DNA of 64,000 nucleotides from Chryseomicrobium sp. FSL W7-1435 (GTDB taxonomy: Bacteria; Bacillota; Bacilli; Bacillales_A; Planococcaceae): assembly GCF_038595005.1 (NCBI RefSeq), contig NZ_CP151997.1, forward strand, positions 806,001-870,000, given 5' to 3'. Each line of letters begins with the position of its first letter. Positions within the stretch are counted from its first letter, which is position 1. Of this stretch, positions 27,292-48,981 are shown one piece after another. The notes beneath the pieces are model-generated. The model was not told where the DNA came from, searched no databases, and was given only the letters and a program-made list of their open reading frames with translations. The position numbers and the translations under genes are program-made.

Positions 27292-27413
27292 ATACGTTGT
27301 AAGTTTAATTATTTCTGTTACATATGTGGCTGACTCAATCGGGCCATGTAAGGTATCAGTTTTTCATAACCAACTCTGTTCCAGATGGTTCAGGGCGAGA
27401 GGAGAGAAATTAG

Positions 27414-28576: not shown

Positions 28577-28870
28577 CTAAATGTGAAACTCGATTCCAGT
28601 AGATGTGAAAATCCGCTCATTGTGAAAATGAGCGGTCGTTCTTTGACTGAAACGGTGGTTTATTAAGACGTAAGCCACATTTATTAGGACGAAACACGAA
28701 TTTATTCGACATAAATCAGTTTTAATGAGACCAAGTCGTTTTATGGAAACTATTTCAACCCTGCACCACACGTAATGAAACCCAAACCCTAAATTACCCA
28801 AACCCTAAATTACCCAAACCCTAAATTACCCAAACCCTTAAAAAAAACCCAAACCCCAGGAGGTGTCCTC
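28577..28870. other. tdk-prfA gap: hairpin plus 16-bp tandem repeat
   Basis: About 290 bp without a supported gene. CCGCTCAT (28613-28620) and ATGAGCGG (28628-28635) followed by TCGTTCTTTG make a weak terminator for tdk. Next comes AT-rich sequence with repeated wTTTATTrrGACrwAA-like phrases (28661-28742). A tandem array follows (28781-28839), then the prfA ribosome site AGGAGGTG. Confidence 0.65.
28781..28839. repeat. 16-bp tandem repeat (CCCAAACCCTAAATTA), 3.7 copies
   Basis: Three exact copies of CCCAAACCCTAAATTA (28781-28828) and a partial fourth (CCCAAACCCTT). It lies 30 bp before the prfA start, inside the likely 5-prime untranslated region or promoter zone. Confidence 0.95.
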
Positions 28871-39809: not shown

Positions 39810-39956
39810 GAATGCCCGCGGAGCTGGATTCAATGCCCGCGGAGCTGGATTCAATGCCCGCGGAGCTGGATTCAATGCCCGCGGAGCTTGGTTCAATGCC
39901 CGCGCAATCGTATTCAATGCCCGCGCAATCGCATTCAATGCCCGAGAAAACCCAAC
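39810..39956. repeat. 21-bp tandem repeat (CAATGCCCGCGGAGCTGGATT), 7 units
   Basis: Seven contiguous 21-bp units. The first three are identical apart from the first base, the fourth has three changes, units five and six share a variant (CAATGCCCGCGCAATCG-ATT), and the seventh is degenerate. Each unit contains the palindrome CCGCGG or CCGCGC. It lies between the mnaA terminator and the atp promoter. Confidence 0.95.
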
Positions 39957-47100: not shown

Positions 47101-47110
47101 GAACCACTCA

Positions 47111-47140
47111 CCGCACTCCCGTTTGGGGGTGCGGTTTTTT
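47111..47140 (+). terminator. Intrinsic terminator of the atp operon
   Basis: CCGCACTCCC (47111-47120) pairs with GGGGGTGCGG (47125-47134), followed by six T. Confidence 0.9.
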
Positions 47141-47148
47141 GTTTTGGT

Positions 47149-47272
47149 GGAAGAGCGTGAGGGACGGAGTTTGAAAGAGCGTGAGAGCTTAAAGGAGGAA
47201 GTGTGGAAGAGCGTAAGAGCGTAAAGGAGGAAGTGTGGAAGAGCGTGAGAGCGTAAGAGCGTAAATGAGGAA
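47149..47272. repeat. Tandem array 1 after atpC (about 32-bp unit, GTGTGGAAGAGCGTAAGAGC)
   Basis: Imperfect tandem units with the phrase GGAAGAGCGTrAGAGCGTAAAGGAGGAA; unit starts at 47201 and 47233 are 32 bp apart, and the last unit has an 8-bp internal duplication (GCGTAAGA). Purine-rich on this strand and directly downstream of the atp terminator. Confidence 0.8.
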
Positions 47273-47455
47273 GTGTAAAGGGCTTGCTAGGAAGGGGCTT
47301 GAGGACTTAAGGCTTTTATGTGTAAAGGGCTTACTAGGAAGGGCTTGAGGACTTAAGGCTTTTATGTGTAAAGGGCTTACTAGAAAGGGCTTGAGGACTT
47401 AAGGGCTTTGGAGTGTAAAGGGCTTACTAGGAAGAGCTTGAGGTCATAGTTCTAA
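47273..47455. repeat. Tandem array 2 after atpC (46-47 bp unit), 4 copies
   Basis: Units start GTGTAAAGGGCTTrCTAG at 47273, 47320, 47366 and 47413 (spacings 47, 46, 47) and continue GGAAGGGCTTGAGGACTTAAGG. The last copy degenerates near 47450. No reading frame with a ribosome site is present. Confidence 0.9.
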
Positions 47456-47875
47456 CTCAGCGACGAAAGAGAGCATTAGAGCGACGAATCTCGGACTTAG
47501 AGCGAAGCAAACGACTGCTTCAGCGACGAAAGCCGCCTCCACTTGAAATAGAGCGACGAAAGAGAGCGATAGGGCGACGAACCATGAACTTAGAGCGAAG
47601 CAAACGACTGCTTCAGCGACGAAAGCCCCCGCCACTCGAAATAGAGCGACGAAAGAGAGCAATAGAGCGACGAACCGCGGACTTAGAGCGAAGCAAACGA
47701 CTGCTTCAGCGACGAAAGCTCCCGCCATTCGAAATAGAGCGTCGAAAGAGAGCAATAGAGCGACGAACCGTGAACTTAGAGCGAAGCAAACGACTGCTTC
47801 AGCGACGAAAGCCCCCGCCACTCGAAATAGAGCGTCGAAAGAGAGCAATAGAGCGAAGCAAACACCTTGATTAGC
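47456..47875. repeat. Tandem array 3 after atpC (93-bp unit), about 4.5 copies
   Basis: The marker ACTTAGAGCGAAGCAAACGACTGCTTC recurs at 47495, 47588, 47681 and 47774, exactly 93 bp apart. Each unit also contains shorter GAGCGACGAAAGAGAGC phrases. Since 93 is divisible by three and the unit lacks stops in some frames, long open frames appear on both strands; none has a ribosome site. The array ends at a truncated unit (AGAGCGAAGCAAACACC). Confidence 0.95.
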
Positions 47876-48006
47876 GGCGCAGACTCGCCATCAAAATTAA
47901 TAAATTCCTCAACAAATGATTAATCACATACTAATTTTAATTAAATAGAAAAGCTTCTATTCAAATGCATTTACTTGAGCTAAACTTATCAAAAAGGAGG
48001 ACACTT

Positions 48007-48981
48007 ATGACAGCCTATATCAAAACAAAACCGATTATCCGAGACAAACGAGATCATCTTATTGCTTTAAAACAATTAGCACTTAGAACGCCAGCAGAGA
48101 ACGTGACAGATAAAGCATTCTTTACAAAACTCTATGCTACTTCTAAAGCTGGATATGATGGAGAAGTGAAAATAGATCGTATTCTCGAGAACATTCCTCT
48201 TCCAGCACTCCATTCAATCATTCCTGACTTTCATACACAATCAAAATTTGGATCTTATTTTCAGTTTGATAGTCTAATCATCACCAATAGATATATTCTT
48301 CATTTAGAAATTAAAAATATTAGAGGTAATATAGAGTTTCAAGAGAACCCTGCTCATCTTATTCGCACATACGAAGGAGTTCAAGAAAAATTAGATTGCC
48401 CGATTCATCAACTCGCAAGAAACAGTAAAGCTTTAGAAATTATTTCAAACAACTTTGAAGTCAAACTCCCGATTTATTCTGCAATCGTATTTAGCCACTC
48501 TAACGCGAAAATAGCGTCCTACCCGCAATCAACAAAAATTCTATACAAAAATCAAATTGATTTCTTTATTGAAAAACTTAATTCCCTTCCAGAACTGTGT
48601 GAAAAAGGACAGCTTCAAAAGATTATTCGCACGTTCCATGCTTTAAATAAAAACTTTAAGGAATTGCCCCTCAGCAGTCGTTATTCTTTTGACGCAACTA
48701 AATTGGCTAAAGGGATGTTTTGTTTAGAGTGCGAAGACCAGCTGCACATTAACAGTAATTCGCGAATTTTTAATTGTACTGTTTGTGGTAATGAACAGCA
48801 TTCAATAGTGAGTGACACAATTATAAGTATGTTTAGAATTGTAAGTCCTCAATTGAAACGATCGGAAATACAAGAATTCCTAAATTACGGTTGTAAAGAT
48901 ACAATTTTACGAGCACTCAAAAAACTCCAATGCACAAAATCAGGCAGCGGCAAATTAACCAATTATTCTCTACCTAAGTAG
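48007..48981 (+). CDS. NERD-domain protein with C-terminal zinc ribbon
   Basis: A 324-residue protein with strong RBS AAAGGAGG seven bases before the ATG. Residues about 38-160 match the nuclease-related (NERD) domain: GYDGEVKIDRIL, FDSLIITNRYILHLEIKNIRG, the D-(x)n-E-x-K pattern of the PD-(D/E)XK superfamily. Near residue 240 a ribbon of two CxxC pairs (CLECED, CTVCGNEQ) suggests zinc and nucleic-acid binding. The C-terminus is helical and basic. The gene is visibly richer in AT than its neighbours and follows 0.7 kb of tandem repeats, suggesting later acquisition. NERD proteins are proposed DNA-processing factors; no specific role is known to me. Confidence 0.75.
   Translation: MTAYIKTKPIIRDKRDHLIALKQLALRTPAENVTDKAFFTKLYATSKAGYDGEVKIDRILENIPLPALHSIIPDFHTQSKFGSYFQFDSLIITNRYILHLEIKNIRGNIEFQENPAHLIRTYEGVQEKLDCPIHQLARNSKALEIISNNFEVKLPIYSAIVFSHSNAKIASYPQSTKILYKNQIDFFIEKLNSLPELCEKGQLQKIIRTFHALNKNFKELPLSSRYSFDATKLAKGMFCLECEDQLHINSNSRIFNCTVCGNEQHSIVSDTIISMFRIVSPQLKRSEIQEFLNYGCKDTILRALKKLQCTKSGSGKLTNYSLPK

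Follow-up and report, generated by a model that had tools for sequence, protein, structure and literature searches.

Repeat arrays with a 20-21 bp step beside NERD nuclease genes in Chryseomicrobium and other Bacillales

In plasmid iterons and centromere arrays (RepA/RepE, ParR-parC), short direct repeats are spaced by whole helical turns, and the gene of the protein that binds them is close by. Type III toxin-antitoxin loci (ToxIN) keep a nuclease inactive with a repeat RNA; the repeats, which are about 36 nt long, lie upstream only and are folded as RNA. Many sets of intergenic direct repeats were described in Beggiatoaceae, where, according to the abstract, one heptamer (TAACTGA) is used and most sets are found just upstream of start codons (PMC4679880). 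NERD is named as a subtype of PD-(D/E)xK nucleases in PMC12458937.

The present analysis concerns NERD genes and the repeat arrays that adjoin them. The arrays are associated with NERD genes and have a regular step in which a block of about ten bases is kept, the two flanks of a gene share their motif at most loci with a lattice on each side, and the motif changes with the nuclease. Searches of an open-access library turned up neither an account of arrays of this kind beside NERD genes nor a role for this NERD subfamily.

The gap between atpC and the NERD gene

The window is a stretch of 64,000 nucleotides from Chryseomicrobium sp. FSL W7-1435, whose genome is a single contig of 2.71 Mb. The neighbours of the arrays in the window are atpC, the NERD gene, a small ORF and murA (murA by reading of the ORF). 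The original prediction of three arrays stacked behind the ATP synthase operon is confirmed, since Tandem Repeats Finder (TRF) finds 32-, 46- and 93-bp units at the positions first claimed, and so is their placement 3' of the terminator-like hairpin of atpC and 5' of an AT-rich NERD gene. The features of the gap, in window coordinates, are:

47110..47135, strand +, terminator-like hairpin (intrinsic type) 3' of atpC, read in the sequence
47152..47256, no strand, 32-bp tandem array, 3.3 copies (TRF)
47273..47443, no strand, 46-bp tandem array, 3.7 copies, 92% matches (TRF)
47278-47299, 47325-47346, 47371-47392 and 47418-47439, approximate copies of the D element
47459..47881, strand +, 93-bp array with 19 AGCG.CG.A-like motifs, steps 21-21-21-30
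48007..48981, strand +, NERD gene, PF08378 match, start at the probable ATG

A lag scan of the window gives 34 rows above a threshold that was unreached by one shuffled window; many of these rows are the arrays listed here, and others are low-complexity coding DNA at about 18.5 kb. The 32-bp array has no second match anywhere in the genome (E 0.001) and may be a private duplication, perhaps outside the module proposed below.

The 46-bp units carry a 22-bp palindromic pattern, AAGNNCTTNCTAGNAAGNNCTT, called here the D element. Thirteen of 15 congeneric NERD loci contain its core, at a density of 0.47 per kb; the density is 0.018 per kb in a 400-kb sample of the window genome, where the core is confined to four lattice-bearing stretches (L103, L105, L108, and L121). 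Ten of the 80 NERD loci retained from a scan of GTDB genomes (best 80 of 84) have the D core, and since nine of them are in Chryseomicrobium or Tetzosporium, D is mainly a feature of that group.

The 93-bp array (4.3 copies, 92% matches, TRF limits 47459-47856) contains an inner lattice. Each unit is made of four AGCG.CG.A copies at steps of 21, 21, 21, and 30, with motif starts at 47459, 47480, 47501, 47522, 47552, and onward, the final two motifs (47852 and 47873) being degenerate. A check for similar arrays elsewhere in the genome had been proposed; run with a sequence model (R1, built from 23 of the 27 units then known) on four congeneric genomes, it finds ten arrays besides that of the window in two genomes. 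The total of 11 AGCGACGAA arrays is divided between the window genome (six) and C. aureum (five), with none in the remaining two genomes, and the five of C. aureum adjoin none of its NERD genes as found by search. The order 21-21-21-30 is kept in all 11 arrays, with one 20-bp step, except at the degenerate ends of the window array and of the 960k array. Spacers mostly differ between the arrays; the 977k and 988k arrays of the window genome nearly duplicate one another. Between adjacent units of the 11 arrays, 25 of 616 sites differ in the motif core, 36 of 176 at the two free motif positions, 180 of 790 in the 12-nt spacers, and 37 of 231 in the 21-nt spacer; the contrast of core and spacer is partly selected for, because the arrays were found by way of the motif. 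The two-motif pattern is present in 9 of 261 genomes of the family, including the window genome and C. aureum. A single dispersed element defined by AGCGACGAA alone was rejected, as the model matches two of the four congeneric genomes. The feature in common is the step, not the motif.

A DUF2087 gene (L065 1751-2548) adjoins one of the C. aureum AGCGACGAA arrays, and in the window genome two solo AGCGACGAA arrays have transposase-like ORFs in their vicinity (by reading; L061 2844-4043 and L063 4767-5501). Another genus of the family has long lattices whose motifs are AGCGACGG or AGCGGCG and whose steps are mostly 19-21:

L042 909-2041 (G057), long lattice
L043 1251-1593 (G080), long lattice
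L050 761-1564 (G080), long lattice

Several simpler readings of the 93-bp array were considered. The suggestion that its unit leaves both strands open in some frames is borne out in the window, with one stop-free frame per strand, and does not extend to all homologous arrays. A coding repeat was rejected, as no frame is stop-free in all 11 arrays and a lag of 20 is common in other genera. The single-contig genome and the related layouts in three other assemblies make an assembly artefact unlikely. A structured RNA element also seems unlikely, with no Rfam match at the locus (gathering score) and weak folding. Elsewhere in the window, Rfam identifies a cobalamin riboswitch at 2226-2363 and an L31-Firmicutes ribosomal protein leader at 27374-27404.

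The orthologous gap was compared in C. aureum, Tetzosporium hominis, and C. excrementi, with one genome per species. AtpC of these relatives is 96-99% identical to that of the window and is followed in each by a NERD gene. The order of D-type element or array, lattice, and NERD gene is the same in all four species, with the D units of C. aureum altered and devoid of the core pattern, and a terminator-like hairpin is present 3' of atpC in the window, T. hominis, and C. excrementi, the three species inspected. At this gap T. hominis and C. excrementi share the lattice motif AACTGCGGCAGATA; C. aureum has one of GCGAAAGT type, and the window genome has AGCGACGAA. Repeat number varies between species. 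According to TRF, the D-type array counts 3.7 units in the window (46 bp each), 5.0 in C. aureum (49 bp), and 4.0 in C. excrementi (31 bp), and none is reported for the T. hominis gap; for the lattice array the figures are 4.3 units in the window (93 bp), 2.9 in C. aureum (82 bp), and 1.9 in T. hominis (82 bp), with no second (lattice) array reported in the C. excrementi gap. All 15 congeneric NERD loci have their own lattice by eye and 13 of them by automatic scan, which misses L123 (the window locus, ORF-masked) and L124 (uneven steps).

Tandem duplication built the arrays, as had been supposed, but the accompanying idea of a purely local process with three unrelated units is unsupported, because D-type element, lattice, and NERD gene recur in order in four species with differing lattice motifs, the AGCGACGAA lattice stands at ten further places in two genomes, and lattices of the same step and other motifs adjoin NERD genes in many genera.

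NERD proteins and their arrays in other genera

The window NERD protein matches Pfam PF08378 with 43.4 bits (curated cut-off 22.1, E 5.5e-11). In this frame the longest ORF begins at 47965, and from the reading of the ribosome-binding site the probable ATG is at 48007; residue numbers count from codon 47998. The protein has a PD-(D/E)xK-like nuclease domain, four zinc-ribbon cysteines, and a winged helix. In an alignment of 69 sequences (68 locus proteins and the window protein; the protein table kept 78 of the 80 loci), residues D91, E104, and K106 of the predicted active site are invariant, as are two of the zinc-ribbon cysteines, the other two being nearly so. An AlphaFold2 model (pLDDT 95.1, pTM 0.90) has a nuclease-like fold at residues 15-196 and a winged helix at 266-327. 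Parts of the former align with PD-(D/E)xK nucleases of the Can2 and Cdn1 kind (VIA-align Z up to 8.8) and also with XisH-like proteins and McrC, and the latter aligns with winged helices including Z-alpha domains and the centromere-binding protein AspA (Z 7.3). Since VIA-align Z values of 7-9 can reflect common arrangements, the architecture is supported by these alignments and the function is not; no PDB match reaches E 0.001. The window protein has no PADLOC match at E 0.01 and no match in plasmid or phage collections at E 1e-5. Two relatives have weak PADLOC matches only, and a score of 25.4 bits for NCBIfam MAD6, against a cut-off of 460, is below a strong match to known anti-phage systems.

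The scan of GTDB genomes was made with the NERD alignment on proteins only, and its best 80 of 84 loci, in genera read as Bacillales, are not independent, because many come from related species. In these loci, a lag-21 match (at least 0.57 over 42 bases) is present in 77 of 148 gaps that adjoin a NERD gene (1.26 per kb) and in 11 of 172 control gaps from other parts of these loci (0.21 per kb), the NERD-adjoining gaps being longer on average than the controls. Pooled autocorrelation near NERD genes, over lags 5-109, has its peaks at lags 21 (z 34), 42 (26.5), 63 (16.5), and 20 (10.9), against largest values of 8.0 at lag 42 and 7.0 at lag 21 in control gaps; with z 34 at lag 21 and 10.9 at lag 20, the NERD-flanking arrays are direct repeats at whole helical turns. 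Smaller controls gave a lag 20-22 match in one of nine AtpC loci outside the genus and in one of three divergent NERD-type loci without CxxC motifs.

A lattice of step 20-22 is found in at least one flank of 70 of 79 NERD loci (one of the 80 is without a usable gap). The best step per locus is 21 in 55, 20 in 14, and 22 in one, counts that come from lattices picked by lags 20-22, so that it is the gap counts and the pooled autocorrelation that support the step without bias. The lattices form 39 motif clusters, a number that depends on the overlap threshold of 0.1. Folded by 21, the 50 profiled lattices have an identity of 0.89 across ten contiguous positions and of 0.45 across the others; with permuted positions these values are 0.79 and 0.55. 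The 93-bp array of the window is probably one case of this general pattern.

Where both flanks have a lattice (21 loci), motif sharing exceeds the 95th percentile of mismatched loci in 16 and does not in five. At least 12 9-mers are shared in direct orientation by the flanks of 17 of 66 two-flank loci, and more than 20 in inverted orientation at L168 and L175. Between loci, the motif follows the nuclease. When NERD identity is 80% or more, 11 of 12 pairs reach an 8-mer overlap of at least 0.2; the counts are three of nine at 70-80%, one of 19 at 60-70%, one of 34 at 50-60%, and none of 1756 below 50%. For syntenic pairs, an overlap of at least 0.1 was obtained for 25 of 29 at 70% or more, six of 17 at 60-70%, two of 14 at 50-60%, and none of 16 below 50%.

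Time is held constant in the comparison of T. hominis with C. excrementi; at three loci, the proteins encoded around NERD have 91-100% identity between these species. At the atp locus NERD is 97% identical and the motif is kept. At the second locus NERD is 52% identical and the downstream motif has changed with the upstream array kept, and at the third NERD is 46% identical and the motifs have changed on both flanks. The upstream motif at 134k of C. excrementi is still T. hominis-like despite the changed nuclease and downstream array, which counts against coupling. In the tabulated pairs, conservation is usually higher in the nuclease domain than in the linker, zinc ribbon, and winged helix (72, 48, 43, and 44%, respectively, in an example pair), and the partial correlations with motif similarity are 0.53 for the nuclease domain and 0.35 for the winged helix. 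The winged helix as sole specificity domain is thus unsupported, the nuclease domain correlating at least equally. No NERD pair of 70% identity or more was found at clearly different loci, so that joint inheritance and direct coupling are inseparable in the motif-nuclease match.

Solo lattices

Solo lattices outnumber NERD genes. A sample of 464 kb (the window and twenty stretches) contains 193 gaps, 11 of them with a lag-21 match; only two of the 11 (window 47.6k and L121) adjoin a known NERD gene, and two (L107 and L115) resemble AT-rich chance. Listed here are two solo lattices of the window and the lattices that share an end box:

28651..28757 of the window, strand +, solo lattice, steps 20-21, ending TTTTATGGAAACT
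39811..39944 of the window, strand +, solo 21-bp array AATGCCCGCGGAGCTGGATTC, 6.4 copies (TRF)
L100 2776-2921, L102 720-865 and 2039-2184, stretches in L103, L105, L108, L112, L120, L121 and L122, and window 28.7k, lattices with the TTATGGAAACTAAT box

The lattice at 28651..28757 matches the array at the 2549k NERD gene of the window genome in 33 of 33 bases, which are the last unit and the common end box and not motif units. A perfect 16-bp tandem repeat, ACCCAAACCCTAAATT, with 3.7 copies (window 28780-28838), is located just behind it. The array at 39811..39944 resembles, by eye, a AATGTCCGCC... array that adjoins a C. aureum NERD gene, and has no BLAST match at E 0.01. In the window genome, BLAST matches to NERD-adjoining arrays lead from L112 and window 28.6k to 2549k, and from L103 6.9k and L108 to 4k; the L103 5.5k solo lattice has none. 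Part of these matches is the common end box TTATGGAAAC. Lattices of differing motif end in a nearly identical box, TTATGGAAACTAAT, and several of them stand, by eye, close behind a terminator-like T run. The solo lattices fit dispersed sites or relics, and it is they, together with the NERD-less AGCGACGAA arrays of C. aureum, that most weaken a simple view of one array per gene.

A putative nuclease module and related systems

The regular step, the block of one helical turn, the indifference to reading frame, and the match of motif with nuclease point to recognition sites. On these sequence features, the arrays are likely to be sites for the adjacent nuclease, with one site predicted per two helical turns, and the nuclease with its recognition array suggests an undescribed module. 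Such a module would consist of a chromosomal nuclease family (NERD PD-(D/E)xK domain, zinc ribbon, and winged helix) flanked by motif arrays of 20-21 bp step, different nucleases having different array motifs. With its zinc ribbon and winged helix, the protein may contact its own array from a single side of the DNA helix. The nuclease would change along with its arrays, either by exchange in place or by rapid joint evolution, and the solo arrays may be further sites or relics. The likeliest role would be defensive or selfish, for a nuclease module that is polymorphic and is marked, tethered, or regulated by its own arrays. Tandem duplication would be how the arrays grow, not the reason for their existence. 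More tentatively, these may be widespread, undescribed hypervariable chromosomal loci, in which a NERD nuclease with its own arrays is exchanged together with the motif at fixed positions, forming a polymorphic system of self-recognition or defence whose specificity would be encoded beside the gene.

Three other explanations were weighed. It is quite improbable that the arrays are transcribed to RNA recognised by the NERD protein, as in type III toxin-antitoxin loci. Flanks of the same orientation (at least 12 9-mers, 17 of 66 loci) could both be read with the gene, and 14 of the 80 lattices, a number above chance, fold better than shuffles on the NERD-sense strand (z < -2). However, the mean folding z is -0.72 on that strand and -0.33 on the opposite one, at least two loci (L168 and L175) have inverted flanks, many arrays are downstream of the NERD gene, and the step of 20-21 fits two turns of B-DNA. 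The arrays could also be passive minisatellites, formed when the nuclease nicks near its own gene and repair duplicates the DNA; they would then be functionless, and the motif would be a cleavage site or chance. Arrays do grow through tandem duplication, and the predicted active-site residues are conserved, but the step and about ten bases in each are kept while the spacers change, an identical layout is found at unlinked loci in two species, and 16 of 21 tested flank pairs share their motif, which leaves this origin with a small probability.

An unlikely explanation that also takes in the solo arrays is that NERD and its arrays are a mobile or homing cassette, solo arrays being footprints of loss between direct repeats. 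The flanking arrays are mostly direct and solo arrays are many; replacement occurs in place, DNA identity falling and recovering close to the ends of the neighbouring genes, and the transposase-like ORFs of L061 and L063, identified by reading, are near solo arrays. Many loci, however, hold one place across species, and the plasmid and phage collections (E 1e-5) gave no match to the window protein.

If the arrays are recognition sites, dozens of natural protein-motif pairs could be read from genomes, and a code of protein-DNA specificity could be deciphered. The NERD subfamily would have a testable DNA target, many Bacillales would carry a candidate defence or selfish system, and a share of the puzzling intergenic repeats in these genomes would be accounted for.

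The NERD arrays resemble iterons and ParR-parC in that their short direct repeats are spaced by whole helical turns and have the gene of a putative binding protein nearby, and the winged helix that aligns with AspA (Z 7.3) recalls centromere systems. Unlike those arrays, they are chromosomal, stand beside a nuclease gene, are often two-sided, and belong to dozens of motif families. With ToxIN they have in common a nuclease gene with an adjacent, locus-specific repeat array; they differ from it in their 20-21 bp step, their position on either or both sides of the gene, and their apparently slight RNA structure. Like the TAACTGA repeats of Beggiatoaceae, as outlined in the abstract of PMC4679880, they form many intergenic direct-repeat sets of a short motif; the Beggiatoaceae sets use one heptamer, and that abstract names no nuclease gene. 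Among NERD (PF08378) PD-(D/E)xK nucleases, of which the window gene matches the Pfam model, the repeat arrays would be the difference, as the open-access library searched listed no paper on NERD genes that have them.
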